This document shows positions 15,581 through 30,464 of a stretch of 30,464 nt of DNA, piece by piece. How positions within the stretch are numbered: position 1 is the first letter of the stretch; each line of letters opens with the position of its first letter. The DNA is from a virus. The stretch covers positions 1-30,464 of IMG/VR virus record IMGVR_UViG_3300025138_000208; one strand, given 5' to 3'. The position numbers were made by a program, and so were the translations under genes. A model generated the notes under the pieces. The model was not told the DNA's origin. It ran no database searches and worked only from the letters and a program-made list of their open reading frames with translations.

Positions 15581-18296
15581 TGGGAGGCTCTATAAAATTC
15601 ATACTAGTGCAGTCTATACGTATAACCCTTGATACACCTAAATCTAGGGATACGCCTTTACTTAATCTGATAGAAGCCGGTCTAGCTTTTAGGTGCTTAC
15701 CACTATAGAGGTCTGCCTTAAAAGAAGGCCAAGGTATGGCTTGCTTCAGACAAAAAGTTTTAAGGTATTTTGGTAATAGGTATAGCGCCTCAGTATCTGG
15801 TTCGTACCTACCCACCACTCTAATTCTAGGATCTGTTTCTGGTATGCTCATATCATCGCTAGCCCGTAGATCAGCGGTGCTTTTTATCCTAAGTATGTTA
15901 CCCCAATTCTCGTATATATAACTGTTGATAACATCTGCTATATCTACGTCCATGTCTTGTACACCCCTCTTATTCTCTTCCAAAAGTCTCAAAGCAAACC
16001 CACCAAGACCCTTGCTAGAATAAGCTATTAGCCCTAACTTTACGGCTATGTAAGCGCCCGTTAAAGTGCAAGCTACTTTCCAAGACCAGAATCTATTTTC
16101 AGCTTTAAGATTTGCTTTCTTATCTATCTTCTGTTGTATGGTAGTTAGTATGTGGTTTGTCTGGTCTATGTTATTAATAACCCACTGTATGTAGATTGGC
16201 CCTGCGTGACCATAAGAACTTACCGCGTTGGCTTGATGCTTGTCAGTGAGATGCTTGCTAGCACTATCGTCAAAAAGTTTAACGGGTCTAGATTCCATCA
16301 TCCTCTGTGCTTCTGCTTTAGGAGCGTTCTTCACTTGCGATATAATATCTAACACACTTCTATTACCTGATGTAACAGAAATGAGACTCCACGGCTCTCC
16401 CCTACTTCTTTCTACGTTTGCACCGCCCGCCATACGGTTTCTCTGCCTACCACTGGATAGTTGGTACACAAAGTTAGATAGCTCAGTAGGGTCTGCATTA
16501 GTAAGTTCGTCGATGTAAAACGGCAGGTTATGGTACACCTCTCCACGTAACATTAGGCTAGAGTTGGTGTCTACTTTATCTAACACTAATTCATCTGGTT
16601 TACCCCATACCCCCATAGCTACATACTTGGCAGTTGTTTTACCTAGTCCAGATTCTTGGCTGTAGAGGTGCATACCTGTACAAGCCACTGGGGTAAGGGC
16701 CATCAATGGAGACCCAAAAGATGTAGCCACTATGTACTGGTGCAACTCAAATTCTTTACGGTTATAGAAGTTGGCGGTATCTTTCCATTGCTCTAAAGTA
16801 CCCTTGGGTTTAAAGGCATAGAACAAATTCTTGGTAGCTTTTGAAGGAGGGTTGTCTTCGATTCTATCGCCAAATATTTGTTTGTCCCCCAGTACGAACG
16901 ACTCAAACTTACCACCTACCCACCCAAATTGTGTATGGGCATTCTGTGTTTCTGTAGTGGCTTGTAGTTCGTTTATCCATTTAATCGTGTAGTGCATTAT
17001 ATCGTCCATCCTTGCTACGGCGACACCGTGGCTAGTCATCTCTTTACGGAATTCTTGTGGTGAAGTTACAACGGTTAGTGGCACTGTAAACTCACGCATT
17101 GGGTCTTTAGGTAAGTGTAGCCTCATAACTACACCTTCTCCCTCATCTGGGTCTTCTATACGTTTAACTACGTACAGATCGTAAGGGTATATCTGCCTCT
17201 CTTCTGTCTCTCCATCTTTGTCTTTTCTTCTTATGTAAACACCCCCATCTGCCCCCCTAAAGTATGGGGCGGGGAACTTGGGTATGTCGGGTGCTCTACC
17301 TTCTTTCACCCTCGCACCTAGCGTTATAGGTGAGGATTTCTTATCCCAGTGTGGACACTCCTCACATACCCCCGCACGGTGTTCATTTATAGTTGAGCAT
17401 TTGTGTACGTGCTTAGTTGTGTCATATTTATTATCTGTTTCCTCTGGATCGTACCCAGAGTACTTACTAGATAGTTTATGGACACCTTTTCTGCCCCCAT
17501 CAACACAGTGTTTGACAATAGATATTGCATCAAACCACAGAGGTTCGCTTACATCTTCGGGGTTCTCCCAAACATACCGCATCTGAGCGCACTTCTTCAA
17601 AACATCTTTGAAGTAGCTTTCCCTGTTATTCACAAGACGTTGGGCAAGTACACCAAAGTCTTCTATCTTAGATGGTTCTCCTATCGGATCGTCCCCTACC
17701 AATAGTGCAAAAGCCTCAAAATCTATAGACCCTTTACCCCCTAAACAACTTACTTTGGCGGGGGGATTTGTTTTATAGTTATGGGTGTTAGGTAGACGTA
17801 AGACTCTAGCGCCATCAGAAGTGACGGCGGCATCCGCTTTAAGATCGTGAACGGCGCAGAGTTTCTTTAGTCTCTCGGCTATAGGGAACCAATCAGCGTA
17901 TATAACATGTTCAGACAGGGGCCAATACGCATGTATGCCGCGTCCTGAGTTAACTACTAAAGGTAGAGGAAAGTCACAAACCCTGCAAAACCTTTTTAAG
18001 TCATCCAGTGCTTCTGTCTGGTTGGGGTAGTCCTTGCCATCGCCGCAATCTAAGTCCAAGAAAAAAGACTTTAGTTTGTGGGTATTAGTAACTTTACGCG
18101 AGTCTTTTTCTTTAAACGTGCTAAGAGCGAAGTAAGAATCATACCCTTTGCTGTCTAAGTCCTGCGCTGTTTCTATAAGTTCCTCAAGCGTTGAATGAAA
18201 CTTCTGTACCCTTTTCCTACTCTGCATGTTGTAAGCAAACGTGCAGTATAACCCTTCATCTGATACGACCTTTTCTAAAAATTCTTTTGCGTCCAT
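15564..18296 (-). CDS. Bifunctional AEP-type primase / SF3-like helicase (DUF927/DUF5906-type)
   Basis: The N-terminal primase-polymerase domain has FFLDLD (D81, D83), a GRGIHAYW segment (H122) and DGARVLRLPNTHNYK (D161-K175), the usual metal and nucleotide-binding motifs of phage AEP primases. A zinc-type cluster follows (H296, H298, C300, C311, C314; CEECP). The C-terminal ATPase has Walker A SGLGKTT (K553), Walker B FYIDEL (D596, E597) and a sensor-like SVTSGNRS. It should prime and unwind DNA at the phage fork. ATG 18296 (MDAKEF) is chosen, giving 910 aa. An upstream GTG at 18338 is possible but lies inside a strong hairpin. The neighbours are the SSB gene upstream and a 71-aa gene overlapping downstream, in the same replication cluster. 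Confidence 0.88.
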   Translation of the reverse strand: MDAKEFLEKVVSDEGLYCTFAYNMQSRKRVQKFHSTLEELIETAQDLDSKGYDSYFALSTFKEKDSRKVTNTHKLKSFFLDLDCGDGKDYPNQTEALDDLKRFCRVCDFPLPLVVNSGRGIHAYWPLSEHVIYADWFPIAERLKKLCAVHDLKADAAVTSDGARVLRLPNTHNYKTNPPAKVSCLGGKGSIDFEAFALLVGDDPIGEPSKIEDFGVLAQRLVNNRESYFKDVLKKCAQMRYVWENPEDVSEPLWFDAISIVKHCVDGGRKGVHKLSSKYSGYDPEETDNKYDTTKHVHKCSTINEHRAGVCEECPHWDKKSSPITLGARVKEGRAPDIPKFPAPYFRGADGGVYIRRKDKDGETEERQIYPYDLYVVKRIEDPDEGEGVVMRLHLPKDPMREFTVPLTVVTSPQEFRKEMTSHGVAVARMDDIMHYTIKWINELQATTETQNAHTQFGWVGGKFESFVLGDKQIFGDRIEDNPPSKATKNLFYAFKPKGTLEQWKDTANFYNRKEFELHQYIVATSFGSPLMALTPVACTGMHLYSQESGLGKTTAKYVAMGVWGKPDELVLDKVDTNSSLMLRGEVYHNLPFYIDELTNADPTELSNFVYQLSSGRQRNRMAGGANVERSRGEPWSLISVTSGNRSVLDIISQVKNAPKAEAQRMMESRPVKLFDDSASKHLTDKHQANAVSSYGHAGPIYIQWVINNIDQTNHILTTIQQKIDKKANLKAENRFWSWKVACTLTGAYIAVKLGLIAYSSKGLGGFALRLLEENKRGVQDMDVDIADVINSYIYENWGNILRIKSTADLRASDDMSIPETDPRIRVVGRYEPDTEALYLLPKYLKTFCLKQAIPWPSFKADLYSGKHLKARPASIRLSKGVSLDLGVSRVIRIDCTSMNFIEPPSADPV

Positions 18297-18324
18297 TCTT
18301 ATTATTCCCAAGGCAGGGTAGCAG

Positions 18325-18340
18325 GGGTGCGTAAGCACCC
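18325..18340 (-). promoter_or_regulatory. Perfect hairpin between SSB and primase genes
   Basis: GGGTGC (18325-18330) and GCACCC (18335-18340) flank a four-base loop. In the transcript the stem is GGGTGC-TTAC-GCACCC, followed by C-rich sequence rather than U, so it is not a standard terminator. It sits in the 80-base gap upstream of the primase ATG and may affect mRNA stability, processing or expression ratio. Confidence 0.5.
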
Positions 18341-18376
18341 TTTTCGGTATTCCTAGCTACTTGGTTTATTTGGCTG

Positions 18377-19072
18377 TCAGTCATCCCACGTTGCAACGAT
18401 ATCTGCTATATCTGCATCGTTTTCCGTGGGTGCGCTAGCCTTCTTTTTTACTGCCTTTGTGGGTTCTGGAGTTGGTTCCTCTACTTCCGCTTCGGTCTCC
18501 TTCACCTCTTCAGTAGCCGACCCAAAAATATCTGCCGTTACTACCTCTTCTTCCCCATCCAAAGTAAACCCTTCGGTAGCTTCAAATGGTGATCTTATTT
18601 CGGGAGTTTTAAGTTCTAAGACTTGAATAGCAACTGGTCTCAGTCTCACACCGCCTGTCATTCCGTGGGGGTGAAAGGTTACCGCCACGTTAGCTACACT
18701 GCCAGACCCCAACTTAAATCCTTCGGGAAACTCTTTATTCTTAGCGTCAAATATTTTAGGCAGGGGTACTGGGTTGCCATCATAAGAAGCTGCTTGCCTA
18801 CATTTACCGACAAACTTATCGTCCTCTCCCTTCTCAGGTTGGGGTACTTTTGCGGGCCAACCTTTTTGCTTCTTTTCCTGATAGGCTTTCGACATCTCCG
18901 TCCATAAATCTTTTGCCTGATCTTTGTTCATCATAAACTGAACTTCGTAGCAAGCACCGTCATCAGTGGGGTCACAGGGTACACTCCTACCACGTTCACC
19001 AGCACTTGAATCAAACCTATAGGGACGATCAACTTTCGGGTACAACACTTCTACTGCTTTTAATATATACAT
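18377..19072 (-). CDS. Single-stranded DNA-binding protein, T7 gp2.5-like
   Basis: The protein is 231 aa, almost the same length as T7 gp2.5 (232 aa). The core (about 1-165) has YEVQFMMNKDQAKDLWTEM followed by an aromatic/basic strand-rich part ending FKLGSGSVANVAVTFHPHG and VRLRPVAIQVLEL. This matches the OB-fold order of gp2.5, where the strand near the glycine-rich turn precedes a final strand pair. From about 170 the tail is strongly acidic, Glu/Pro-rich and ends in TWDD. Such tails bind replication partners and regulate DNA binding in phage SSBs. Start ATG 19072 follows AAGGA. It lies directly upstream of the primase-helicase and downstream of a CxxC protein. The match is from pattern recognition; a profile search would confirm it. 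Confidence 0.75.
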   Translation of the reverse strand: MYILKAVEVLYPKVDRPYRFDSSAGERGRSVPCDPTDDGACYEVQFMMNKDQAKDLWTEMSKAYQEKKQKGWPAKVPQPEKGEDDKFVGKCRQAASYDGNPVPLPKIFDAKNKEFPEGFKLGSGSVANVAVTFHPHGMTGGVRLRPVAIQVLELKTPEIRSPFEATEGFTLDGEEEVVTADIFGSATEEVKETEAEVEEPTPEPTKAVKKKASAPTENDADIADIVATWDD

Positions 19073-19082
19073 GCATTTTTCC

Positions 19083-19718
19083 TTACGTTGCGTTTAGTTC
19101 ATAACCTTCAGCAATGTCAAAAGGTGAGTTGGGTGCAACGACAAAACCTGTTGCCGTGTGAGTGTCTACACTGTCTTGCAATTGTTTCACCGCAGACAAC
19201 TCCTCATCTCTCAATGATCGCATTGGCTTGAAGAAAAGTTTGGGTACATTACTACTTGAGTCAAAGTACATTCTTGTTAGAACGGACGATATCTCGCTAC
19301 CTCTGCTTACTAAAAACTTAATATACTCTTGCATCGGTAGATGACCTCCCTTGGCTTTCCCATATATGGATGTAGCGGGGAGTTTTAGTTTATACATAGT
19401 ATCTAACTGCCCTTCAAAAGCAACCGCTATATTCTGTATAAACTTGCAAGCTCTACCACGGTTATGCCCTGACCCACGAATATTGTGTGTGCAGTCTAAA
19501 CAGCGGTTCGCTTGTTTGCTAACTTCTGGTACACCCTTGTCAGGGCGTTGACTATCCAAAGACCAACACGTAGGTGCTTTATGAACATTCGGTTCATACT
19601 CCCCTTCGTAGTAGACTCTTGATACATCAGCCATACCCACCACAATAATGTCTTTGAAGTCTGCATCTGCCGTGGTCTTGTAGCCGTGACCGACAACAGA
19701 GAATTTTTTACCCTGCAT
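19083..19718 (-). CDS. CxxC-containing phage protein of unknown function (211 aa)
   Basis: The protein is mixed alpha/beta. A central metal-site-like pattern consists of C (TCWSLDS), then CLDC, then a Gly/Arg/His turn and ACKF, giving four Cys spaced like a zinc ribbon. The C-terminal part contains PMQEYIKFL and PMRSLRDEEL helices. Similar CxxCxxN...GACK patterns occur in phage proteins encoded near SSB and recombination genes (recollection only). The start is uncertain: ATG 19718 (MQGKKF) or GTG 19733 (MRRIS), and neither has a strong ribosome site. It lies between an excisionase-like HTH gene and the gp2.5-like SSB, so a role in DNA replication or recombination is likely but unproven. Confidence 0.7.
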   Translation of the reverse strand: MQGKKFSVVGHGYKTTADADFKDIIVVGMADVSRVYYEGEYEPNVHKAPTCWSLDSQRPDKGVPEVSKQANRCLDCTHNIRGSGHNRGRACKFIQNIAVAFEGQLDTMYKLKLPATSIYGKAKGGHLPMQEYIKFLVSRGSEISSVLTRMYFDSSSNVPKLFFKPMRSLRDEELSAVKQLQDSVDTHTATGFVVAPNSPFDIAEGYELNAT

Positions 19719-19735
19719 ACTGATTCGGCGCACAT

Positions 19736-19966
19736 TTAAAAGTCCATATCCGCCATATCGTTGGTATATTCGATAGGCACCTCCTTATCCAATTTTTCTT
19801 TCTTCAAAGCCGATTCGACTTCAGATATTTTAAACCTGTATGTCCTAGCTACCTTCAAGCAACAATCACTAGGCAGTATTCCATTACCTATCCAAAGACG
19901 TATGGTAGGTATAGACACCGACAAGTGCTCTGCCAACTCTGATATAGAAACATATTTCTCTGTCAT
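19736..19966 (-). CDS. Small HTH DNA-binding protein, excisionase/MerR-like
   Basis: The protein is 76 aa. Residues about 5-50 contain SISELAEHLSVSIPTIRLWIGNGILP followed by a wing-like ARTYRFKISEV segment, the winged-helix layout of HTH_17/excisionase-family proteins. The C-terminal tail is acidic (TNDMADMDF). Its ATG overlaps the upstream stop by four bases (ATGA), so the two genes are translationally coupled. No integrase is in the window, so it may be a transcription regulator rather than a true excisionase. Confidence 0.75.
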   Translation of the reverse strand: MTEKYVSISELAEHLSVSIPTIRLWIGNGILPSDCCLKVARTYRFKISEVESALKKEKLDKEVPIEYTNDMADMDF

Positions 19967-20352
19967 TTTTTCCTCACTGCGATAGCATACTCGCTGTCTA
20001 CGTTAAGACCTTTGGGTACTAGGTCAGGGTTTTCATCCAAAAACTGTTTTACGTTGTTCTGGTTAAGGCGTTTATCAAAAAACTCTGGTACTTGGTTCTC
20101 CATGATGAACTCGTACATAGACGACCAATCGGATGTCCAATACCTAGTCTTAACTGATCTATAGAACAAACCCTCTGAAGTCCTAACACTCTCTATATTC
20201 TGCTCGGCACAGTAATCTAACAACGCCTGTTTAACCATATCAAGCTGATCTGATAAAGAAGAGTCTTCTTCCTTGTATTTAGCGGCTATGTCAGACCTAC
20301 GTTCCTTTATTTTGAGGTAGGTTTGGACTAACTTCTCAGGCTTTAATGTCAC
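19963..20352 (-). CDS. Small coiled-coil protein, Gam/Gp157-like (129 aa)
   Basis: The N-terminal half (about 5-55) is a long, charged helix pair (KLVQTYLKIKERRSDIAAKY and DQLDMVKQALLDYC). It is followed by a strand-type segment with SVRTSEGLFYRSVKTRYW and a C-terminal helical part with NQNNVKQFLDENPDLVPKGL. The layout of a long helical hairpin and a small beta tail resembles Gam/Gp157-type phage proteins that protect or handle DNA ends; this is an analogy. The start is GTG at 20352 with CGGAGAG eight bases upstream. A possible promoter lies just before it. It is followed without a gap by the HTH gene. Confidence 0.65.
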   Translation of the reverse strand: MTLKPEKLVQTYLKIKERRSDIAAKYKEEDSSLSDQLDMVKQALLDYCAEQNIESVRTSEGLFYRSVKTRYWTSDWSSMYEFIMENQVPEFFDKRLNQNNVKQFLDENPDLVPKGLNVDSEYAIAVRKK

Positions 20353-20377
20353 AGATACTCTCCGTTTAGTGCTAAAG

Positions 20378-20407
20378 AGTATAGAATAGTGATATTTAGT
20401 TAGTTAA
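20378..20407 (-). promoter_or_regulatory. Candidate sigma-70-like promoter
   Basis: In the 51-base gap after the helicase gene, the - strand reads TTAACT, 18 bases, TATACT (rightmost base 20407, leftmost 20378). It would start a transcript just before the 129-aa gene. It is judged only by match to consensus. Confidence 0.3.
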
Positions 20408-21933
20408 TCAAGTATTTCTTCATATAAAGTTATAATTTGTGAATGGACATCTATCCTACTATCTAGCAGCCTGTACACACGACGCTCTATATCAGAACCT
20501 TGCAGTTGGACGACTGTACATTTATGGTTTTGCCCTGACCTATGCACGCGGGCATTAGCTTGAAGGTATGTTTCTAGAGAACTTGTCGGCCCCCACCATA
20601 CAACTGTGTTAGCTGCTGTTAAAGTTACACCATGTGCTGCTGCTTGTGGCTGTATTACCAGTACACGTATATCATCTTGCGTTTGGAAACTCTTAAATAC
20701 CTCCGTTCTTTTTGGGGCCGGTACATCACCTCTAATATATGTAGTGGGTATACCATCTTTGTTAAGTTTATCTGTAATAAGGTCTATAGCATGTTTAAAC
20801 GGCACGAAGACAAGCACCTTCTTGCTTGACTCATCTATAACCTCGCGTAGTACCTTGTAGCGGTGCGATATGTCAAACTCTAGGGCATCTCCATCGTCTG
20901 TGTATACAGCACCGGCAGATATCTGTAGTAGTTTGTTCATGTTGACTGCGGCGTTAACTGAGGTTATCTGCTCCCCTGCGGCTTGCATTACCATCTTATC
21001 TTTTAATTCTTTATAGTATTTTTTCTGCTGTCTTGTAAGCTCTACCTCTCGCGTTGTATACACCATAGGAGGTAAATCTAGGCACTCGTCTTTAGTAAAA
21101 CGTATAGCCGGTTGTAAGGCGTTGTACACGATGGTCGAGGAATCTGGTTTGGGCATCCACTTGAATTGACTAACCCTTAACATAACTTGATCTCTAAACG
21201 AACCGTAGAACCTCGGTACACTAGTAGGGTTAACTATTTTAGCTAGGCCGTAAGCATCTAAAGGACTCTGTGCGGCAGGTGTGCCTGTCATCATCCACAC
21301 CCATGTGTGAGGTTTAACCATGCGGTTGAGTACTTTCCACCGATCTGTCCGTGCGTTCTTATAGTGTGTAGCTTCATCTACAATTATTAAATCTCTACTG
21401 CTTAAATCTTTTTCGAGAATAGCTAACCCATCGTAGTTTGTTACTATGTACTCAGCATCATTAGCTACAATCTCTTTGCGTTTTTTAGCAGAGCCATACG
21501 CTATGTCTACAGTTCTATGCATGGCGAACTTAAACAAGTCATCGCGCCAAGCAGAATCCATAATAGATAGTGGGCATACAATAAGCACTCGATTAATTAC
21601 ACCTTGCGATAGTAAGTAATCAGACGCCCATATTGCAGAAGCAGTCTTGCCAGTACCTTGTTCGTTAAAGCAGAACGCTCTTTTACGTAACGTGAGAAAC
21701 GCAGATGTGGTCTTTTGGTGGTCGAAAGGAGCGTACTGCCCCGTCCATTTATACTTCTTCTCTATGGGTGAGGGTGCCTTTATATCCATACTTCTCAAAA
21801 TCTGGCATTCGTCTATACCCCATTTAACCAATACCTTGTTGTCTGTTAATATTTTACTATGTTTTATCGCCCCCCTAATTTTGTTAGGGTCTTTTACTCT
21901 CAGGACAAGCGCCCTGTCATCTACTATTTGCAT
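20404..21933 (-). CDS. SNF2-family DEAD/H-box helicase/translocase (509 aa)
   Basis: All superfamily-2 motifs are present: FDHQKT (motif Q-like, about 70-75), Walker A EQGTGKT (91-97, K96), DEATH box (186-190), TGTPAA (216-221), RGDV in the second lobe (401-404), and motifs V/VI with HGVTLTAANTVVWW and QANARVHRSGQ (R462, R465). The order and the HRSGQ arginine finger fit Snf2-type translocases, which move on duplex DNA. In phages they are associated with replication and recombination, often near polA. The start is ATG 21933 (MQIVDD), with GGAG five bases upstream. A longer GTG start at 22005 exists, but its N-terminal extension lacks a ribosome site and resembles leader sequence. Confidence 0.92.
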   Translation of the reverse strand: MQIVDDRALVLRVKDPNKIRGAIKHSKILTDNKVLVKWGIDECQILRSMDIKAPSPIEKKYKWTGQYAPFDHQKTTSAFLTLRKRAFCFNEQGTGKTASAIWASDYLLSQGVINRVLIVCPLSIMDSAWRDDLFKFAMHRTVDIAYGSAKKRKEIVANDAEYIVTNYDGLAILEKDLSSRDLIIVDEATHYKNARTDRWKVLNRMVKPHTWVWMMTGTPAAQSPLDAYGLAKIVNPTSVPRFYGSFRDQVMLRVSQFKWMPKPDSSTIVYNALQPAIRFTKDECLDLPPMVYTTREVELTRQQKKYYKELKDKMVMQAAGEQITSVNAAVNMNKLLQISAGAVYTDDGDALEFDISHRYKVLREVIDESSKKVLVFVPFKHAIDLITDKLNKDGIPTTYIRGDVPAPKRTEVFKSFQTQDDIRVLVIQPQAAAHGVTLTAANTVVWWGPTSSLETYLQANARVHRSGQNHKCTVVQLQGSDIERRVYRLLDSRIDVHSQIITLYEEILD

Positions 21934-22055
21934 ACAAACTCCAAAATAGGTACGTCTTACCCCCAAATATAGGTTGTTACAGTTTGTGTTTACATCACGT
22001 AACACTACATATAAGTTACCGGGTAATACTTATTGGGAAGATAACTCTTGTGGTA

Positions 22056-22082
22056 AACCCCGCTTCGCCTCCCGATGGGGTT
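22056..22082 (-). promoter_or_regulatory. Inverted repeat in helicase leader
   Basis: AACCCC (22056-22061) pairs with GGGGTT (22077-22082) across a 15-base G/C-rich loop. It lies in the 258-base untranslated stretch between the 48-aa gene and the helicase start. It may be a leader RNA structure; the function is unknown. The rest of this stretch (21934-22055) shows no gene or clear promoter. Confidence 0.35.
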
Positions 22083-22104
22083 AGGTCGAGATTATGGGAC
22101 AAAG

Positions 22105-22131
22105 AAAAACAAAAAACCCTAGGCTTCCTAG
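22105..22131 (-). terminator. Probable intrinsic terminator of the polymerase cluster
   Basis: On the - strand CTAGG-AAG-CCTAG is followed by GG and a TTTTTTGTTTTT run. The stem is only 5 bp, but the U-tract is strong. It lies after the last small gene of the polymerase cluster and before the helicase leader, separating two transcription units. Confidence 0.5.
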
Positions 22132-22136
22132 ATTTT

Positions 22137-22176
22137 ATGCAGTGTAATTACACTCAATAGGAGAGAGATACTGCAT
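22137..22176. repeat. 14-bp perfect palindrome nested in a 7-bp inverted repeat
   Basis: AGTGTAATTACACT (22141-22154) is its own reverse complement. ATGCAGT (22137-22143) and ACTGCAT (22170-22176) form an additional inverted repeat sharing its left arm. The symmetrical sequence in non-coding DNA is operator-like; alternatively it forms competing RNA hairpins before the terminator. Confidence 0.7.
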
Positions 22177-22191
22177 CATTTAAAGACGGAT

Positions 22192-22338
22192 CTAAGCACC
22201 GTCTACCACACCCAATTTTGTACGTAACCACTTATCGTTAAGCTGTTGCACCATATTCTTTTTTGACAGCTTGGATTTGACTTGTCGTTTGTTAGCCGCC
22301 GACTTTGCGTTTATGGGTGCGGTTCTATAATTTGTCAT
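22192..22338 (-). CDS. Small basic protein (48 aa), unknown
   Basis: ATG at 22338 overlaps the end of the 75-aa gene by 14 bases. The frame reads MTNYRTAPINAKSAANKRQV and ends LGVVDGA. It is rich in Lys/Arg/Asn/Gln, and GAGAGTGA precedes the start. It fills what would otherwise be an unusually long gap, and the overlap style matches the operon. It may bind nucleic acid. Its small size makes this a tentative call. Confidence 0.5.
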   Translation of the reverse strand: MTNYRTAPINAKSAANKRQVKSKLSKKNMVQQLNDKWLRTKLGVVDGA

Positions 22339-22552
22339 AGCGGTCACTCTCATCGTTAAAGTCTAATTCGTATGCATCGTTATCCTCAAGGGAAACGGTT
22401 TGTCCTGCATACACAACGCGATCAATACCGTCTTCGCAGTAAACCTTTATAGGTTGTTTCCTAGGCAATCTTCTAAACCTGTTGGTATTATCTGCACCTT
22501 GACTACGTTCCTCCGTAACTAAACTATCCTCCCGATCTCTATATGAAAACAT
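22325..22552 (-). CDS. Small acidic/charged protein (75 aa), unknown
   Basis: The N-terminal half is Arg/Asp-rich and probably disordered (RDREDSLVTEERSQGADN). The C-terminal half has a short beta-rich part (PIKVYCEDGIDRVVYAGQTV) and an acidic end. No family is recognised. It starts at ATG 22552, ten bases after the previous stop, and its tail overlaps the 48-aa gene. Confidence 0.6.
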   Translation of the reverse strand: MFSYRDREDSLVTEERSQGADNTNRFRRLPRKQPIKVYCEDGIDRVVYAGQTVSLEDNDAYELDFNDESDRYDKL

Positions 22553-22562
22553 AGCTATGCCC

Positions 22563-22781
22563 CTATATATTTAGGTTCTCTACCTTAGCCGTAGAGGTTA
22601 GTGTTATATCGCCATCACCATAGACACTGTATGCTGTGCGGAGTGCCTCTATTACTGCTTGGCAGTCAGCGTTAAACTTATCTGTGTCGTGGTGGTAGTC
22701 CATCATCTTGATTCGCGCTAACACTTCGGGCTTGGGTTCCCCTAACGTGTTACGTTCCACTCTTACTATGACTTCTTCCAT
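22563..22781 (-). CDS. Small phage protein (72 aa), unknown
   Basis: It begins MEEVIVRVERNTLGEPKPEV and contains a HHDTDKFNADCQAVIEALRT helix. It looks like a small alpha/beta protein with no recognised family. ATG 22781 is chosen because GGAG is six bases upstream and it overlaps the previous TGA (TGATG). A GTG one codon earlier would be too close to the ribosome site. Confidence 0.65.
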   Translation of the reverse strand: MEEVIVRVERNTLGEPKPEVLARIKMMDYHHDTDKFNADCQAVIEALRTAYSVYGDGDITLTSTAKVENLNI

Positions 22782-23050
22782 CACTTTCTCCTTTTATAGT
22801 TTCTACTTCTATTAGCTGATTTACTTTCCACACGCACACCGTCTGCGTTACTACCGCCCTTGCTCAGTGCCTTGTTGTGGCTAACGTCTTTACCTTCGCG
22901 CTTGTCAGCACGACCATCTTTGTTAGCGTCCTTACCCTTCTTATCCATTGCGCGTCTGGCTCTCTGCCTCTCCATCCGTGCCTTATGTGCGGCACTACCC
23001 ACAGGTGGATTATTTTGTTTCTTGCGGTCTTTCTTGTTCTTATACGGCAT
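22781..23050 (-). CDS. Highly basic small HNH-like protein (89 aa)
   Basis: The N-terminal half is extremely Lys/Arg-rich. Residues 41-52 (DANKDGRADKRE) fit an EF-hand-type calcium loop apart from Ala at the usual aliphatic position. The C-terminal half, with GKDVSH (H58), KGGSN (N68) and SANRSR (N80), resembles small phage HNH-type proteins whose motif reads DVDH...GGSN...NRSR. Here the Asp before the His is replaced by Ser, so catalytic activity is doubtful. A nucleic-acid-binding role is likely. ATG 23050 overlaps the nuclease stop (TAATG) behind GGGAGA; an upstream Met at 23089 is not needed. Confidence 0.65.
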   Translation of the reverse strand: MPYKNKKDRKKQNNPPVGSAAHKARMERQRARRAMDKKGKDANKDGRADKREGKDVSHNKALSKGGSNADGVRVESKSANRSRNYKRRK

Positions 23051-23721
23051 TAGTTTCTCCCGTTGTATATACACTCGGTAACGACACAATGTTGTTTACA
23101 CAAACCACTAGGTTTGGCATTCCATACGTCAGTTTCATATGCTTTCTTCATCGTGTCAAACCCTGTGTACCATTTAGGCCATAGGCTAGATGCAGTAGAG
23201 TACTCGTAGTTCTCTTTCACAAGTGCCTTACATACAACAAACAATAGTCCTGCCCGCACTGTCTCTACAGCAGGGAAATGTTTAAACACCGCTAGAGCCA
23301 TTAGCTCTAACTGATACTTGTCTGCATATCTAGTGTTCTTGCTAGTTTTGTAATCAACAACCCACGCTAGCTTGTCTTCTTCGTTGAGTATGATTAGGTC
23401 GCATATACCCCTGTACCAAGCATCTCTGTCGCTGAATCTACAAGGCTCTAGGTTCTCTGTAAGGCCCATCCTGTACTCACATAGTTTGTCCCCTTTCTTT
23501 GCTATCAGGGAATCTAGTACGGGTTTGCTATACATAAACTTTTTGGGTAGCGGCTCTCCATCTTTGACGTAGTGTTCTGCCGCCCTATGAAATTGGTTAC
23601 CGTAGAACATTGCACTTGACTGTTTTTCCTTGTAGTCCTTTGCAACCTTCAAGTGGTAAAACTGTTTAGGGCATTGGTTGAATGATTTAAGTTTAGAGAA
23701 AGACCACGGAGCGACGTTCAT
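23050..23721 (-). CDS. PD-(D/E)XK exonuclease, Cas4/RecB-like with Fe-S cysteines
   Basis: The protein is 223 aa and begins WSFSKLKSFNQCPKQFYHLK, the typical start of PDDEXK_1/Cas4-like nucleases. Motifs are H45 (GNQFHRAAEH), D108 (ICDLII), D123-Y-K125 (VVDYKTSK) and Q137 (YQLEL). Four Cys (C17 and C208, C212, C217) fit the Fe-S cluster that closes Cas4/AddB-type nucleases. It probably degrades or processes DNA ends during phage recombination or host DNA breakdown. Its ATG overlaps the polymerase stop (ATGA). No CRISPR or other Cas gene is nearby, so the name refers only to fold family. Confidence 0.88.
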   Translation of the reverse strand: MNVAPWSFSKLKSFNQCPKQFYHLKVAKDYKEKQSSAMFYGNQFHRAAEHYVKDGEPLPKKFMYSKPVLDSLIAKKGDKLCEYRMGLTENLEPCRFSDRDAWYRGICDLIILNEEDKLAWVVDYKTSKNTRYADKYQLELMALAVFKHFPAVETVRAGLLFVVCKALVKENYEYSTASSLWPKWYTGFDTMKKAYETDVWNAKPSGLCKQHCVVTECIYNGRN

Positions 23722-25541
23722 TCTTCGCAGTCTCCATATGACTTACCTGTAAATGCCTCACAGTCTAGTGGTAACCCTTCTGCCCACTCAGGTGTTTCGC
23801 GCATACACTGCTCCACAAACAACTTAGCCTCCGTGACTTGATCATCCTTAACACATACTACCAACGAGTCATGTACAGTCAGCACGACCTTATACTCCTT
23901 ACTAATTTTTAACATCTGGTCTGCGATTATGCATCGGGCAAAGGCTTGGCAGACATTCTCTACCACCTTCCCACCATACAAATTGATTCGGCCTTTGCGG
24001 GATTTATAGCTAAACTGTAACCCCTTCTCCTCTCGCTTAGATTTTATATCGTCGTACCGCATCATAATCCCAGAGGGTAATAGAATCCCATCCTCCTTAT
24101 ACTTTATAATGCCCCCAATACCATATCGTCCTTTATCTTTGTTAACTAAGTCCGTTAGCATTTTCTGAGCTTTGGCCCACAAATCGACTATACTGTTGTT
24201 GGCTTCGCGGTAGACTTGGACAATCCTACGACTCTCTTCTATAGTTATATCTACACCAAAATTTCCTAACTGATCTTGAAACCTATAAGACCCCATCCCA
24301 TAGCCACATCCTAGTATGGTGGTCTTACCAACAAACCGTTGTTCTTTTGTAACCTCACTTTCGGGTATGCCATAAATACTCGATGCCATCTTTATATACA
24401 CATCTTCCTTGTTAGCAAAAGCCTTCACTAGATCGTTCTGCTCTGACAACCATGCCAACACACGAGCTTCGATCTGAGATGAGTCACAATCTATAAGTGT
24501 GTATCCATCAGGTGGCACTATGCATTTCTTGAGAACTTTTCCATTGTCCCCACGGCTAGGTAGGTTTTGTATATTTATCTTATCGTCTCCACCCCAACGT
24601 CCTGTGTGTGCCGCGTAATATCTTATAGGCACAGGGAGCAACCCCCGCTTTGCGATGGATATAAATCTTTCAGTGCGAGTTTCTTCAAGGGTGCTTTTCA
24701 CACCAAGGCGTGTGGTTACTAGTGTTTGCACCATAAAGTTTTCATGGTCAAGCAAGTCAGTAAATTTCTCGTCCGTTTTGGCAAAAGCAAATGTCATCTT
24801 ACCGTTGGCGGGGCTTTTCTTCATCGGTGGCTTTACGCCATGATCTTTTAATATCTCCGCAAACTTAGGGTTACTCATCAAATCCTTCTTAGTAAACCCC
24901 GCGAATTTAAGCATCTGTTCTTTCTTGTGGCGAGTGGAGTCCAGATGAGTTTCTAACTTACTCAAGTCAAGATCGAGCATAGGTTGTGTAAACATCCTGA
25001 GTGTGCTGTCTATAACGCGCATCTCTTTCTTTGGGAACTTTGGTGCCATTTGTTTAAACAGTCCATAAGTCAACTCCACGTCGTTTATGCAGTAGTCCCC
25101 AAATTTATCTAACTCGGTGCTATTAAAGTCACTGCGTCCCTTACCCTTAGTATTTTGTATCTCTCCACCCTTAACACCAAGGTTATAAAGTTCGGCTAGT
25201 GAAGCCAAGCTAACACTAGTCTCTACACCATGTATGGCGCGACCCATACACATAGTATCTGCATATGCGCGAGGGTTTATACCGTATATCCAACTAAGTA
25301 TTGCCCCATCAAACATAGTGTTATGGGCTAGGGCGAAGCTATCATCCCAGTTAAAACTTTTAAGGTAGGCTTTAAGCTCTCCATGCGTACCACTTGCCCA
25401 CTCTGTCTCTCCATTATTTACCTTTACCCCTACACCGATCACCTCAAAACGAGGATCTCGGATATAGGATTCCAACGTCATCTTACGTAACGAGAAGTCC
25501 TTGTCATAGTAAGTCTCAAAATCTAACGTAATCAAGTCCAC
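23718..25541 (-). CDS. polA: Family A DNA polymerase with 3'-5' exonuclease (607 aa)
   Basis: The proofreading domain has ExoI DFETY (D7, E9), ExoII NTMFD (D78) and ExoIII YCIND (Y150, D154). The polymerase domain has motif A DSSQIEAR (D353), motif B RFVGKTTILGCGYG (R402, K406, Y414) and motif C VHDS (H557, D558). The residue aligned to E. coli Pol I Phe762 is Leu410. The protein is a compact exo-plus-pol enzyme with no 5' nuclease, as in T7-like phages, and replicates the phage genome. The start is GTG 25541 with GAGAGG eight bases upstream, overlapping the previous gene by 10 bases. It is translationally coupled to the Cas4-like nuclease gene downstream. Confidence 0.95.
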   Translation of the reverse strand: MDLITLDFETYYDKDFSLRKMTLESYIRDPRFEVIGVGVKVNNGETEWASGTHGELKAYLKSFNWDDSFALAHNTMFDGAILSWIYGINPRAYADTMCMGRAIHGVETSVSLASLAELYNLGVKGGEIQNTKGKGRSDFNSTELDKFGDYCINDVELTYGLFKQMAPKFPKKEMRVIDSTLRMFTQPMLDLDLSKLETHLDSTRHKKEQMLKFAGFTKKDLMSNPKFAEILKDHGVKPPMKKSPANGKMTFAFAKTDEKFTDLLDHENFMVQTLVTTRLGVKSTLEETRTERFISIAKRGLLPVPIRYYAAHTGRWGGDDKINIQNLPSRGDNGKVLKKCIVPPDGYTLIDCDSSQIEARVLAWLSEQNDLVKAFANKEDVYIKMASSIYGIPESEVTKEQRFVGKTTILGCGYGMGSYRFQDQLGNFGVDITIEESRRIVQVYREANNSIVDLWAKAQKMLTDLVNKDKGRYGIGGIIKYKEDGILLPSGIMMRYDDIKSKREEKGLQFSYKSRKGRINLYGGKVVENVCQAFARCIIADQMLKISKEYKVVLTVHDSLVVCVKDDQVTEAKLFVEQCMRETPEWAEGLPLDCEAFTGKSYGDCEE

Positions 25542-26367: not shown

Positions 26368-26694
26368 TCATTGTGAAGCCAGTTCCTTGCGGCGGCTCGT
26401 AGGCGAGTCACCCCACACCAGTGCCGTTGTGTCGTGCATGTTGGCTTCGTTGATTACTAGTGCTATGCCCCCTGCGGAGCTTATGTCATGTAAATTCTTA
26501 TCCTGTAAAGGAGTAGGTTTATTCTTGCCCGCCTTACATTCAATGCCAAAGAACTTACCCTTGTGACACCCCACTATGTCAGGAACACCACTGCCACCGT
26601 AACCGCCGGTAACAGGATAAAAGTAATAAGCACCCATATCTTTAAGGTGCTTAATCACTACCTTCTTTACCTTTACTTCCGGCGTTGATGCCAT
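26368..26694 (-). CDS. VRR-NUC family endonuclease (108 aa)
   Basis: The single small domain has the PD-(D/E)XK motifs of phage VRR-NUC enzymes: GVPDIVG (D39), FFGIECKAG (E52, K54) and a Gln (TPLQ, Q64), after an aromatic YYFYPVTGGYGGSG stretch. Stand-alone phage VRR-NUC proteins act as structure-specific nucleases, possibly Holliday junction resolvases. Start ATG 26694 has GAGGAG eight bases upstream and lies within the end of the 56-aa gene (44-base overlap). Confidence 0.88.
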   Translation of the reverse strand: MASTPEVKVKKVVIKHLKDMGAYYFYPVTGGYGGSGVPDIVGCHKGKFFGIECKAGKNKPTPLQDKNLHDISSAGGIALVINEANMHDTTALVWGDSPTSRRKELASQ

Positions 26695-26821
26695 CAGCTA
26701 TCTCCTCAAGTACGTACAGGATCTCTCTAGCTAGATCCACTAGGTCGTCGTTGTCTACATCTATCTCTATTTTTATCTTCACTGTATCCTCATACTGTAT
26801 GACCAAGCTCTCGTCATACAT
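26651..26821 (-). CDS. Small acidic protein (56 aa), unknown
   Basis: The protein is MYDESLVIQYEDTVKIKIEI then DVDNDDLVDLAREILYVLEE, followed by a Gly/Lys/Ser tail: one beta hairpin and one helix. ATG 26821 is chosen, since an upstream start would have to read through the terminator hairpin. The ribosome site is weak. It is the first gene after the terminator, and its tail overlaps the nuclease gene. Confidence 0.55.
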   Translation of the reverse strand: MYDESLVIQYEDTVKIKIEIDVDNDDLVDLAREILYVLEEIADGINAGSKGKEGSD

Positions 26822-26831
26822 TTTCCAGACC

Positions 26832-26854
26832 AAAAAAAGGGAGCCGAAGCTCCC
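26832..26854 (-). terminator. Strong intrinsic terminator with UUCG tetraloop
   Basis: On the - strand GGGAGC-TTCG-GCTCCC is followed immediately by seven T residues. The six-base-pair GC-rich stem, UUCG loop and U-tract form a textbook rho-independent terminator. A second, weaker stem (GCTGAAT 26862-26868 with ATTCAGC 26887-26893) precedes it and covers the stop of the 87-aa gene. Confidence 0.93.
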
Positions 26855-26884: not shown

Positions 26885-27148
26885 CTATTCAGCTTGGTCG
26901 TAAACCAAATATTCGTTTGAACGTAGTCGTTTACCTACACCTTCCACCGCTTTAACCCAATCGGCTTCTTTGTTACTTAATATGTATAGTACTGCTAAAC
27001 GACCTTGCATCCACTTGGGGAGGTTATCTATACAATCATACTCCCCCACAATATCTGAGTCAACACATTCCATACCAATACATGATATTCTAACCAGTTT
27101 AGTATTATTATCTATTACTACGTGATAAGCACTATTACCTTTGCTCAC
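26885..27148 (-). CDS. Small protein (87 aa), related to C-terminus of the 367-aa protein
   Basis: It reads YHVVIDNNTKLVRISCIGME, then MQGRLAVLYIL, then VEGVGKRL, ending YLVYDQAE. The LAVL...EGVG...Y pattern also occurs at the C-terminus of the upstream 367-aa protein. The start is GTG 27148, overlapping the previous TAG (TAGTG), with AGGTG upstream. It is the last gene before the strong terminator. The function is not recognised. Cys and acidic residues are scattered without an obvious motif. Confidence 0.7.
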   Translation of the reverse strand: MSKGNSAYHVVIDNNTKLVRISCIGMECVDSDIVGEYDCIDNLPKWMQGRLAVLYILSNKEADWVKAVEGVGKRLRSNEYLVYDQAE

Positions 27149-28251
27149 TATGTATCACCTTTGCAATATGCGAAGTACATGTCCTCACTGTCCCTGTACC
27201 CAACACCTTCTACGTGATCGCCAATATCTACCATAGATAGTACAGCCAGACTACCCTGCAACTCATCGTCCAAGGTATCGTTAGTAAACACAATAGGTCG
27301 TTGGTACTCGTCTACTGATTCATGTATTGACATGCGGTGAAAATTTGGGGAGATATTGTCTATGCGAATCACACTGTACGTCTGCACACCATGTCTGTCT
27401 TGAAACACCCGTACACAATACATGTTGTACTTCTTTTGTCTTAGCTCCTCGGCTTCTTTTTGTGCGGCGCGTAAGTTCTTTATGTCATGTTCTACTTCTA
27501 CCGACATAAACTTATGCCCTATGTCGAGTAGCCGGTACAGTTCCTGATGTAACGCGGAATTATCTCTATACAAGTTCCTAGTAAGTGAATCGCGTCTGCT
27601 ACATAGCGCACTTTCTGCATTTGTACTTATCCCATCCACTTTTCTAGACGCGGCACGTACATTCTGAGCCACGTTCTCCACCTCTGTGTAAGGTACAATC
27701 GTTGCCGATGCCCTTTTGACTGCTAGCTTAACCGTAGAGTACCGCGCTACATGATACTGCATCTTGTTGGAGGCGCACTTGTTGTTTTTTATACGTCTTG
27801 AGTACACAGTAAATTTTCTTACCCCAGTATCGGATACCGTCCAATCCCCATACCCGACCCAACCCATAGCGTATAAGTCTTGCTTGCGGTACACATGAAT
27901 CTTGGTTGCCTTAGCCGCTTTGCCGTAAAATAAGTACGCGCCACGAAAGTAATCGTTTAGTTCTTTAAGGTATCGTACTACCCTGTTGTTTACCCTCGCG
28001 GTTTCAAACGCTTGTTCTCGTCTACGTATTGCGCGTTTAGCGTCCCAACTATCTAATGTTTCGTACTGTTCTTGTTTCCATTGCTCAGATACTTCCATTT
28101 CTCCTAGGCTTACCTCCTGTAGGTTAGGTACATCTATGACACCTAAATCTGTTGGGTACTTGGGTGCTGTCCAATCTTCAACAAGTTTAGGCGAATGTTC
28201 TCCCACTAGCTCGTAGCCTACATCCGCTGATGGTACTGGTCTGAAATTCAT
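27148..28251 (-). CDS. Uncharacterised phage protein (367 aa)
   Basis: The N-terminal ~70 residues are Pro/Glu-rich. A central part has YFRGAYLFYGKAAKATKIHV and a Tyr/Lys/Arg-rich segment. Residues about 185-270 are long helices (VENVAQNVRAASRKVDGIS, YRLLDIGHKFMSVEVEHDIK). The C-terminal 90 residues are strand-rich, with LQGSLAVL and EGVGYRD, and are shared in pattern with the next gene. No signal peptide, membrane helix or catalytic motif is seen. ATG overlaps the previous TGA (ATGA). The protein probably works with the adjacent 323-aa protein, since they are coupled, but nothing identifies its task. Confidence 0.7.
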   Translation of the reverse strand: MNFRPVPSADVGYELVGEHSPKLVEDWTAPKYPTDLGVIDVPNLQEVSLGEMEVSEQWKQEQYETLDSWDAKRAIRRREQAFETARVNNRVVRYLKELNDYFRGAYLFYGKAAKATKIHVYRKQDLYAMGWVGYGDWTVSDTGVRKFTVYSRRIKNNKCASNKMQYHVARYSTVKLAVKRASATIVPYTEVENVAQNVRAASRKVDGISTNAESALCSRRDSLTRNLYRDNSALHQELYRLLDIGHKFMSVEVEHDIKNLRAAQKEAEELRQKKYNMYCVRVFQDRHGVQTYSVIRIDNISPNFHRMSIHESVDEYQRPIVFTNDTLDDELQGSLAVLSMVDIGDHVEGVGYRDSEDMYFAYCKGDT

Positions 28252-29219
28252 AATTGTATCTCCTGTCTAATAGGTTGATGGTTATAGAAATCACCGTATT
28301 GGTTTACTAGTTTGTTGATCTGCGATTTGAATTTCTTCCTGTCGTAAAACTGATCCTTGGCTACAAACCTCTGAAGGGTTCTGTCCCACTGCATAGAACC
28401 GCCGTTCTCTACAATCAAATGCATAAAGCTAGTCAATAGATCAACACGTTGTGGGGAGTCAAGGTGTAATGCCGCACGTACTTCTCCGGGGTTTGATATC
28501 AATGCCCCACATACGCTATCTTTTACTTCCCCTTTTAGTAGTGGGGCCATGATGCAAGCCCAATCAGAGAAGTCTTGTATATCCTTGACGTACTGCTCCT
28601 TGGCCTCCTTGTCCACAATCTTTTTAGCGGGTAACCACTTAGGGCTTACAAGGTTCCATTGATCGGGTTTCGCGGATGCCCTGCGATCATAGCGCCGTTC
28701 AAAAACTAGTTCGCGTCTATAGGTAGACCTGATCACCCATTCCCTCCCGCTATTTTCAACGGCACCCCAACTGCCCTCGCTTTCGGGGAGAAAGTATGTC
28801 TGGATAGTCTTGCTTCTCAGACCGCTCCAAGCTCTTTGGTCAGGCACGTATTCATTGTGCTTTATGGTCTGCTTCTCGTATCTCCAACCAACAGGTAGAA
28901 ATTCACGGAAGAAGTCACGGGCAGTACCAGAGTACTTGCTGATGCCACCACATAACGTAATACGATCACGCATGTCAGCACCATTAGGGTCTAGAAGATC
29001 CCAAGTGATCATAGGGAATATAAAGTCATTGGACAGGTGTGTGCCTCCATGACCTACCACTCCTAGGATATACCTGTGATCGTGGACTTTGACTATCCTC
29101 TCGTGTTTACGTTTTCGATTACCTAGTGGGCGTACATCATCTACCACTTGATGGTTCTTGCTTTTCATGGGTTTGATATTCTTGTATCGCACTTCAACAT
29201 CTTGAAATGTAGATAACAT
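28248..29219 (-). CDS. Uncharacterised phage protein (323 aa)
   Basis: Basic and aromatic-rich, with KSKNHQVVDDVRPLGNRKRK near the start, then ILGVVGHGGTHLSNDFIFPM, TLCGGISKYSGTARDFFREF, a long Arg/Glu/Trp-rich middle and a helical C-terminus. His and Gly residues in VVGHGGTHL might form a site, but no family is recognised. It starts with ATG 29219, overlapping the preceding TAA (TAATG). It belongs to the VWA operon, so a role in a MoxR/VWA-type assembly or host-interaction pathway is possible. This is inference. Confidence 0.7.
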   Translation of the reverse strand: MLSTFQDVEVRYKNIKPMKSKNHQVVDDVRPLGNRKRKHERIVKVHDHRYILGVVGHGGTHLSNDFIFPMITWDLLDPNGADMRDRITLCGGISKYSGTARDFFREFLPVGWRYEKQTIKHNEYVPDQRAWSGLRSKTIQTYFLPESEGSWGAVENSGREWVIRSTYRRELVFERRYDRRASAKPDQWNLVSPKWLPAKKIVDKEAKEQYVKDIQDFSDWACIMAPLLKGEVKDSVCGALISNPGEVRAALHLDSPQRVDLLTSFMHLIVENGGSMQWDRTLQRFVAKDQFYDRKKFKSQINKLVNQYGDFYNHQPIRQEIQL

Positions 29220-29554
29220 TACACTTCCTCCTCTCTGTAAACATTAAAGTTTCTGTGCGTCTTTTCGCTCGGTCGTGGTGCCACAACCTTGTCAGGGAAT
29301 AGCTCGACGCATTGGTTGCGGCTTATGTGGAATTTGTTCCCCCGACCGTCGAGAAAGTAGCACTGCACTATTTCTTTTTCGCTCTTGCTGTTGCCTGTCA
29401 TGTGTTTGCTCACGACGGTAGATGTCACTGTACCCTTGTCATAGATAGTTGGGTGTATGCTCTGCAAATACATACTGCGTTCTAGTTCCTTAGCCAGCTC
29501 CGCTTGACGTTGTAACTTAGCCGATAGGCTCCGTATTACCTTGAGTTTAGTCAT
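29219..29554 (-). CDS. Small basic protein (111 aa), unknown
   Basis: The N-terminal helix is basic and amphipathic (KLKVIRSLSAKLQRQAELAK), followed by TSTVVSKHMTGNSKSEK and a strand-rich part VQCYFLDGRGNKFHISRN. ATG 29554 is chosen: GAGGAGATA lies just upstream and it overlaps the previous gene by 8 bases. An earlier Met at 29596 would lie inside the 50-aa gene. No family is recognised. Confidence 0.65.
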   Translation of the reverse strand: MTKLKVIRSLSAKLQRQAELAKELERSMYLQSIHPTIYDKGTVTSTVVSKHMTGNSKSEKEIVQCYFLDGRGNKFHISRNQCVELFPDKVVAPRPSEKTHRNFNVYREEEV

Positions 29555-29699
29555 TACATATCTCCTCTTCATTAAGGTACTTCTGTACGGCATCATCAGC
29601 CAACGTATCCAATAGCTCGTAGAACTCCTCTGAAAAACCTACATAGTCCACTTCCTTTTGGATCTGTAGTGTGAGCCTTTCCCAAATATCTTCTTTCAT
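29547..29699 (-). CDS. Small acidic protein (50 aa), unknown
   Basis: MKEDIWERLTLQIQKEVDYV then a helical, acidic rest ending NEEEICND. ATG 29699 overlaps the VWA stop codon by one base (TAATG), preceded by GGGAGA. A longer frame opening at 29801 runs inside the VWA gene and is not needed. It probably folds as two helices. Function unknown. Confidence 0.6.
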   Translation of the reverse strand: MKEDIWERLTLQIQKEVDYVGFSEEFYELLDTLADDAVQKYLNEEEICND

Positions 29700-30464
29700 T
29701 ACATATCTCCCGATTTTATATGTGCAACCTTGCCTAGAGGGGGCTTGGCCTTGGGATTGTTGAGTACTGCCCAGAGTATCGGGCATGTCCATACACCCCA
29801 ACCACCGTACAGGTCACCGTCAGTCAACACGATAGTCGCTTGGGGTGTGATATTGTTGTCGCGCATATAGTCAACAACACACTCCACGTCTGTACCTCCA
29901 CCACCAATTGGTTTGGTGGAATTGATCAGGTTACCTAGCTCATCGGGTGAGTAGGACTCATCACCAACCACTTTGTGTCCCCAGTACAGTAGCCGAACCT
30001 TAGAGGGTTTTACTGTGTCGCAAATAGACTTGACCTCACTGAGAAATACTGTGAGAGCGCGTTGCCCGATAGAACCGGACGTGTCGATTGCCAATACTAG
30101 CTCGCCCACCGTCTCACTGATGCCGCTTGGTAGGTATACACCCTGTGCTATGTACCTGCGGTTGGGCCTCTTCCATGTAGAGAAGTCTTTACCGGCACAG
30201 GTGGTTTGTAAGAACTCACGCAGTAACTCACGCCAATCAACCTGCGGCTTCAATAGCTCGCCGATATCTCGGTCAACTTCTTGGCCCATCTTCCCTGCGG
30301 CAAGTGCGCCTTGGCGTATGGCCTCGTCGATATCACGCTCCAACTCACGCAACTCATCTGATGTAAGTCCCTTAGCACCCTCCCAATCATGCTCATCTAG
30401 ACCGCCACCGTCTTCACCGCCTCCACCGTCTCCACCGTCTCCACCGTCTCCACCGTCTTCACCA
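29699..30464 (-). CDS. VWA-like domain protein (DUF2201/CoxE-type), 5'-partial
   Basis: The frame is open to the right edge, so the N-terminus is outside; 254 residues are visible. The visible part starts with Gly/Asp repeats (GGD), then a helical region (LREFLQTTC). The VWA domain has a complete MIDAS: DTSGSIG (30065-30085), GGGGTDVE and VLTDGDLYGG, the D-x-S-x-S, Thr and Asp positions that hold the divalent metal. Such proteins usually pair with a MoxR-type AAA+ ATPase, forming a chaperone-like complex. The partner could lie just outside this window. It heads an operon of five unknown genes, and its stop overlaps the next ATG. Confidence 0.88.
   Translation of the reverse strand, partial: GEDGGDGGDGGDGGGGEDGGGLDEHDWEGAKGLTSDELRELERDIDEAIRQGALAAGKMGQEVDRDIGELLKPQVDWRELLREFLQTTCAGKDFSTWKRPNRRYIAQGVYLPSGISETVGELVLAIDTSGSIGQRALTVFLSEVKSICDTVKPSKVRLLYWGHKVVGDESYSPDELGNLINSTKPIGGGGTDVECVVDYMRDNNITPQATIVLTDGDLYGGWGVWTCPILWAVLNNPKAKPPLGKVAHIKSGDM
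30407..30464. repeat. 9-bp tandem repeat encoding Gly-Gly-Asp
   Basis: On the - strand ggagacggt recurs four times in succession with variants on both sides, encoding a GGD/GGE linker of the VWA protein that continues past the window edge. Confidence 0.8.

Follow-up and report, generated by a model that had tools for sequence, protein, structure and literature searches.

A conserved MoxR–VWA phage cassette with palindromic sites that change together with one candidate regulator gene

The IMG/VR virus record IMGVR_UViG_3300025138_000208 was analysed in its entirety (30464 bp, hereafter the window). The assembly ends inside a gene for a VWA-domain protein, and this frame and the five open reading frames (ORFs) downstream of it all lie on the minus strand. 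Sequence comparison indicates that a conserved phage cassette, DUF3150–MoxR–VWA(DUF2201)–p323–p367–p87, is truncated here, with its downstream half inside the window. The cassette genes of the relatives carry repeated palindromes, which change in sequence together with a further gene, called R here, a candidate regulator. The features of the window are as follows.

29699..30464, minus strand: VWA-like / DUF2201 protein, C-terminal 254 aa (PF09967, PF13203, phrog_1314; 80 kept IMG/VR relatives)
29547..29699, minus strand: 50-aa ORF, coupled to the VWA gene by TAATG (from the sequence; not conserved)
29219..29554, minus strand: 111-aa ORF (from the sequence; not conserved)
28248..29219, minus strand: p323, conserved and fast-evolving (55 loci, alignment, AlphaFold2 model)
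27148..28251, minus strand: p367, conserved, the fastest-evolving cassette protein (57/58 loci), with long helices and a C-terminal domain common to p87
26885..27148, minus strand: p87, free-standing paralogue of the p367 C-terminal domain
26839..26854, minus strand: UUCG-loop intrinsic terminator closing the cassette (from the sequence; same element in L001, L032, and L044)
26796..26820, no strand assigned: predicted palindromic operator, 25 bp, TGTATGACgAGAGcTTGGTCATACA (2 mismatches to the L001 consensus)
26368..26694, minus strand: VRR-NUC / Hjc-like nuclease, the first conserved gene past the operator, opening the replication genes (phrog_93, E 1e-15; 71 loci)
23718..25541, minus strand: family A DNA polymerase of the adjoining replication block, used as a reference gene (PF00476)

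The VWA frame is open at the contig end (30463), and its stop codon lies at 29701-29699. Because the record ends within the gene, only the C-terminal 254 aa of a protein of about 400 aa are present. The frame matches PF09967 (E 2e-18, 67 bits against a curated cut-off of 26.4) and PF13203 (C-terminal part, E 3e-13). The metal ion-dependent adhesion site (MIDAS) is complete, with DTSGS at residues 127-131, T191, and D215 (open-frame numbering). These residues are invariant in the alignment, and the motifs are found in most of the 81. An earlier note, made from this DNA alone, had recognised a VWA protein with an intact MIDAS; this was confirmed, with the correction that the window holds just the C-terminal portion of the protein. 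The window protein also matches phrog_1314, which is labelled 'HNH endonuclease'. By its domain content, this label does not fit the VWA domains (DUF2201), and domain scans of the VWA family found no HNH family. The same annotation is attached in many phage records to phrog_1314 / N4 gp25 and homologues, which are VWA-like DUF2201 proteins.

The ORFs of 50, 111, 323, 367, and 87 aa are joined by overlaps of 1-8 nucleotides (nt). The junctions are TAATG between the VWA gene and the 50-aa ORF, an 8-nt overlap (ATGACTAA) between the 50-aa and 111-aa ORFs, TAATG before p323, ATGA between p323 and p367, and TAGTG between p367 and p87, which starts with GTG. The run of overlapping or abutting genes described earlier is therefore real, and the overlaps are partly local: the closest relative, locus L001, has a palindrome-bearing spacer between VWA and p323. 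The terminator (GGGAGC-TTCG-GCTCCC-T7 at 26854-26839) closes the operon in the window as the earlier note had claimed. It is recurrent but not universal, since a strict scan found a TTCG terminator 3' of p87 in 11/58 relatives.

IMG/VR contains 318 stretches encoding VWA relatives. The best 80 were taken with their flanks (loci L001 etc.). The order DUF3150–MoxR–VWA–p323–p367–p87–nuclease–polymerase–exonuclease–helicase is kept in every one of the 79 loci in which four or more of these genes occur. MoxR is directly upstream of VWA in 55/55 loci with 1.3 kb of upstream sequence, and the DUF3150 gene is found in 41/41 loci with room for it. p367 is present in 57 of the 58 loci with at least 3.5 kb downstream, and p323 in 45/58 loci with room. 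A MoxR gene had been expected near the VWA gene, and a missing MoxR and scattered homologues had been named as evidence against a functional system. Neither was seen, since MoxR accompanies VWA and the conserved order leaves the homologues together. The proposal of five unrecognised proteins forming one system was too broad: p323, p367, and p87 are conserved, p87 being paralogous to the C-terminal domain of p367, whereas none of the 80 loci has a counterpart of the 50- or the 111-aa ORF.

In L001, a 302-aa protein is followed by a 365-aa AAA+ ATPase and then by a VWA protein of 397 aa, whose N-terminal domain is DUF2201. The 302-aa family corresponds to the Pfam family DUF3150 (16/24 members match, best E 7e-9). 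The L001 ATPase contains Walker A (GHMGTGKSS) and Walker B motifs. Among full-length MoxR proteins, which come from the relatives and not from the window, both Walker motifs are found in 57/57, the TTN sensor 1 in 53/57, and the arginine-finger motif ARNR in 41/57. The family matches phrog_1297 (E 3e-43), its nearest PDB sequence is midasin, and its Pfam AAA_5 match falls below the cut-off; among the AAA+ clades it is a putative member of the MoxR clade. Of 73 full-length relatives, 55 have HExxH in the DUF2201 N-terminal region of VWA, a region outside the window, and 18 have HExxxH instead, mostly as HEDEGH, which makes a peptidase activity doubtful. Two further elements lie inside the L001 cassette. 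An IS110/IS116-family transposase-like gene is located between p367 and p87 (L001:12915-13856, phrog_4285 E 1e-34). Between this gene and p87 there are about 25 units of 36 nt (L001:13842-14737), AGAAAACCA-N9-AGCGAGTCA-N9, in which conserved 9-mers alternate with variable 9-mers.

The nearest named MoxR–VWA pair is N4 gp24/gp25 (Schitoviridae, phrog_1297 / phrog_1314). There, neighbouring MoxR and VWA/DUF2201 genes also lie upstream of replication genes, but VWA identity is about 38% at best, and a profile search of the region in N4, Presley, and Vibrio phage D505 did not find DUF3150, p323, or p367. The isolated Rhizobium phages RHph_TM3_14A and relatives similarly have the ATPase, a metallopeptidase-type VWA, a related polymerase, a RecB-like nuclease, and a helicase, whereas DUF3150, p323, and p367 were not found. 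Outside the group, p323 and p367 occur together only in L084, a contig of a metagenome-assembled genome (MAG); L083 has a weak p367-type match. The genome_contigs scan gave three MAG contigs of probable phage origin (7-18 kb) and did not reveal a home of the cassette in bacteria. Within the open papers searched, whose coverage is incomplete, DUF3150 is nowhere mentioned and 'N4-like' is nowhere joined with 'MoxR'.

The proteins p323 and p367 have no Pfam match and nothing significant in the PDB, by sequence or by fold (Foldseek). AlphaFold2 models built on alignments of the relatives are confident, with a predicted local distance difference test score (pLDDT) of 87 for p323, an alpha/beta protein, and 80 for p367, which has long helices and a C-terminal domain. 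A BFVD search with p323 returned two uncharacterised uncultured-phage proteins only. Neither direct searches of named phages nor single-sequence IMG/VR scans found p323 or p367; the relatives emerged only via the VWA anchor. For p87, a profile comparison revealed homology to the p367 C-terminal domain (hhalign E 2.8e-13). The p367 profile also gives a second, smaller match just downstream of p367 in most records searched. A relationship of p323 to p367 or to DUF3150 was considered and rejected, as they are not homologous.

The divergence of these proteins was compared as median identities at a VWA identity of 0.60-0.65. The medians are 0.35 for p323, 0.30 for p367, 0.50 for DUF3150, 0.65 for MoxR, 0.69 for the polymerase, 0.75 for the helicase, and 0.81 for terL. 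Between the window and L001, identity is 0.86, 0.76, 0.71, 0.48, and 0.38 for the polymerase, p87, VWA, p323, and p367, respectively. The position and fast divergence of p323 and p367 agree with the earlier suggestion that they are partners of the VWA protein, a partnership that stays putative.

The NorQ/NorD and RavA/ViaA pairs are MoxR–VWA chaperones that remodel a target (PMC13036017, PMC10585395); NorQD acts on nitric oxide reductase. The cassette likewise pairs a MoxR AAA+ protein with a MIDAS VWA partner, but it is phage-borne and has a DUF2201 N-terminal domain and the additional DUF3150, p323, and p367. MoxR, presumably a hexameric AAA+ ATPase, and VWA probably form an ATP-driven remodelling machine. 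DUF3150 may be its third core subunit, because it is strictly linked. Substrate recognition probably falls to the p323 and p367 subunits, which would direct the machine to its target, and p87 may compete with or regulate p367. The likely substrate would be a host protein met early in infection, since p323 and p367 diverge fastest.

Two other functions of the machine were considered. MoxR–VWA and its partners might be an internal phage chaperone, which remodels or inserts metal into the phage's own replication or virion proteins in the manner of NorQD. In favour of this, every relative has its replication genes immediately after the cassette, N4-like and Rhizobium phages too carry the pair close to their polymerase, and remodelling of targets and insertion of metal are established activities of MoxR/VWA pairs (PMC13036017). 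However, a client should evolve with the replication genes, yet p323 and p367 diverge far faster, and the cassette has its own terminator and putative operators, apart from most replication genes; this role is rather doubtful. It seems unlikely that the cassette serves in conflict or counter-defence, as a phage-borne system akin in principle to the vWA–MoxR ternary systems. As in those systems (PMC7159879), MoxR, vWA, and further components, some of them fast-evolving, share one locus. But no VMAP, iSTAND, or effector domain was found in p323, p367, or VWA, and the cassette is without the VMAP or iSTAND third component and any effector domain recognised by Pfam or PADLOC. PADLOC gave no defence match except a weak one to MoxR (E 0.006), and the order of the parts is fixed across the group, unlike the swapped effectors of the ternary systems.

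In the relatives, a palindrome of 16–25 bp is repeated just before the ribosome sites of the cassette genes, and its sequence differs per phage type. A repeat search of L001 found six copies of TGTATGACCAAAGTTTGGTCATACA. Four lie 19-34 nt before the start codons of R, DUF3150, MoxR, and p323; a fifth separates the p87 terminator from the following operon, and the sixth is in the spacer between R and DUF3150. The window has a single copy of the L001 type with 2 mismatches, directly behind the terminator; 100 shuffles gave no match. Being present just once, the palindrome escaped a palindrome-family scan restricted to the window. The earlier note had mentioned neither this palindrome nor DUF3150. 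Other types include AGTTAGGGAATTCCCTAACT (L044), TTGTATACATATGTATACAA (L006), and AAGTTCTACAGTGTAGAACTT (L067). Nearly every relative with enough upstream sequence carries a repeated palindrome. The palindrome score is 52-218 in 43/57 loci, compared with at most 39 in 114 Markov-random controls; most of the failing loci are contigs that start inside the cassette. Additional loci show the pattern again. In near-complete records (49-66 kb), nearly all well-matching copies fall in the stretch from terS to the nuclease gene; one further copy precedes the primase in G012. In some phages, palindromes are also found inside coding sequence.

Other elements were noticed near these sites. A second repeated element, GAAACCAGTTC...GCGTTGAGC, occupies non-coding DNA upstream of DUF3150 in many relatives, often beside the palindrome (e.g. 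L001:6809-6946, L048:2600-2800, L066:6780-6930), and the 36-nt array of L001 resembles an expansion of it. In several phages a G-rich stretch (GGGGGTCGGGGGG type, possible G-quadruplex) upstream of R immediately precedes the first palindrome that follows terS (e.g. L040 ~4050-4090, L076 ~5085-5125, L006 ~4790-4835). One L009-type palindrome lies before p323 in L008 (L008:9960-9979), while the other L008 copies are of its own type; L008 is possibly a recombinant or an unfinished switch.

The gene R encodes a protein of 175-225 aa, lies between terS and DUF3150, and has its own terminator. Loci L045 and L047 have about 97-99% DNA identity through much of terL, DUF3150, MoxR, and VWA, and the proteins are near-100% identical. 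Their palindromes are wholly different at the same positions, and in most cases the flanks are identical to the palindrome edge. The L047 type is present in two further contigs, one of 60 kb, so an assembly error is unlikely. R is the main other difference in the common region (18% identity, N-terminal part). A second switch was found between L148/L151 and L152/L157, where VWA identity is 0.91-0.97, R-body identity is 0.19-0.24, and the palindromes differ. Sixty-four pairs, not independent of each other, have a VWA identity of 0.68 or more; in this set, R-body identity is 0.44-1.00 in the 23 pairs with the same palindrome and 0.15-0.38 in the 41 pairs with different palindromes. The ranges do not overlap (Mann-Whitney p 2e-11), whereas VWA identity gives no separation (p 0.11). 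For the first set of loci, a permutation test gave p 0.0002.

Mosaic cases narrow this down to a part of R. L008, L009, and L013 have a common R C-terminus (87%), with different N-terminal parts and palindromes. L148 and L151 have a common R body (96%) but not C-terminus (25%), and the palindrome is kept. R and palindrome are common to L040 and L151 though VWA is only 69% identical. The specificity for the palindrome thus appears to lie in the R body. As alternative specificity factors, DUF3150, MoxR, VWA, terL, and p367 were ruled out, being 96-100% identical in L045 and L047 with their differing palindromes. Another candidate regulator, p203, has a weak helix-turn-helix (HTH)-like match; it was dropped, as L001, which has the same palindrome as the window, has only the C-terminal part of p203.

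The palindromes might instead be RNA hairpins for processing or translation control, or phage promoters, rather than operators bound by R. They sit in 5' leaders just upstream of the ribosome site and fold as RNA. In places only ~50 nt separate the terminator from the start codon, so a promoter should be near. However, the symmetry extends to the centre in 17/23 types, which is unexpected for loops and suggests a DNA-bound protein dimer in preference to an RNA loop, and the palindrome changes together with the protein R. A single-subunit RNA polymerase (PF00940), as promoters of this kind might require, was not found in a search that had no positive control. This explanation is judged somewhat unlikely. 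The Rhizobium phages have a repeated palindrome as well, but its copies are scattered genome-wide and in many cases overlap the ribosome site. In RHph_TM3_14A (L085), TTACCTCGCAAGGTAA has 23 sites, the right arm often including the ribosome-binding site; since they are spread over coding and non-coding DNA, this palindrome may act in RNA.

It is very improbable that the palindromes are parS- or iteron-like partition or replication sites, with R as the binding protein of a plasmid-like maintenance system. Many identical dyads, one dedicated gene, and the failure to find a tyrosine integrase are compatible with such a system. But the palindromes are placed precisely before cassette start codons, and no ParA or replication-initiator family was seen among the scanned proteins, where ParA was not sought directly.

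Taken as a whole, the reading favoured here, and considered probable, is a remodelling cassette controlled via palindromic operators that are read by R. Control would be exerted through the operator repeated before the ribosome-binding sites and beside the closing terminator. R, a phage-specific protein that might bind as a dimer, would read this operator, as its co-variation with the palindrome suggests. R is most likely a repressor or a transcription roadblock, because the sites are just upstream of ribosome-binding sites and in some phages within coding sequence; stoperators of Cluster A mycobacteriophages offer a parallel for such action (PMC6550527).

Several points weigh against this reading, in addition to the dependence among the 64 pairs. 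The window itself is without R, DUF3150, and MoxR. A match to an HTH DNA-binding PHROG was obtained for 1/23 R proteins (E 2e-4), and the remaining R proteins gave no clear domain match. A partial Mantel test over all pairs with the R N-terminus was not significant (p 0.098), probably from saturation of the distant R proteins. Over all pairs, moxR correlates better with the palindrome than R does; moxR is 100% identical in L045 and L047 although their palindromes differ. The fast divergence of p323 and p367 could reflect relaxed constraint. Lastly, no tyrosine integrase was found in 11 records, which are possibly incomplete and in which serine integrase and parABS were not sought. Classical lysogenic immunity is therefore unsupported, and any immunity would lie outside classical lysogeny.

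An extension of the proposal of R-read operators is possible but more tentative: these phages, in which no integrase was recognised, may carry heteroimmunity, with a type-specific R and matching dyad operators on a MoxR–VWA cassette for host takeover. Once inside a cell, a phage could block the cassette of any later arrival of its own type, which might favour new R/operator pairs. All operators would then change together with R, also between genomes that are otherwise near-identical, because a resident phage would silence the takeover cassette of same-type newcomers. The repressor–stoperator system of Cluster A mycobacteriophages (PMC6550527, PMC9283540) is comparable in that one regulator has many phage-specific sites and the types differ between related phages. 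Stoperators are asymmetric sites of 13 bp that occur throughout the genomes of temperate phages (PMC6550527, PMC9283540), whereas the sites described here are near-perfect dyads almost confined to one cassette. Moreover, R has no clear counterpart in the databases, the search for a tyrosine integrase was negative, and whole site sets are swapped between near-identical genomes. The literature search found no description of cassette control sites changing sequence together with one regulator gene.

The MoxR–VWA pair occurs in hundreds of sequenced phages with no assigned role found and its VWA member often mislabelled, as above. The cassette offers candidate partners for it and an experimental handle. 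The regulator–operator pairs resemble immunity types, in phages that do not look temperate. Because genomes that are nearly the same can carry entirely different operator sets, with seven sites changing together while their flanks stay unchanged, they allow a direct test of how regulatory specificity evolves. If R represses the cassette, the cassette must matter at an early stage of infection, and R by itself would confer type-specific phage resistance.

Two very large proteins were also observed. The window encodes a 2247-aa protein (p2247, 8614-15357) with an LPD39 'large polyvalent protein' domain, which is kept in 14/16 related records. In a 66-kb relative (G011, L102/L103), one ORF of 5302 aa lies among the late genes (contig 9561-25469).

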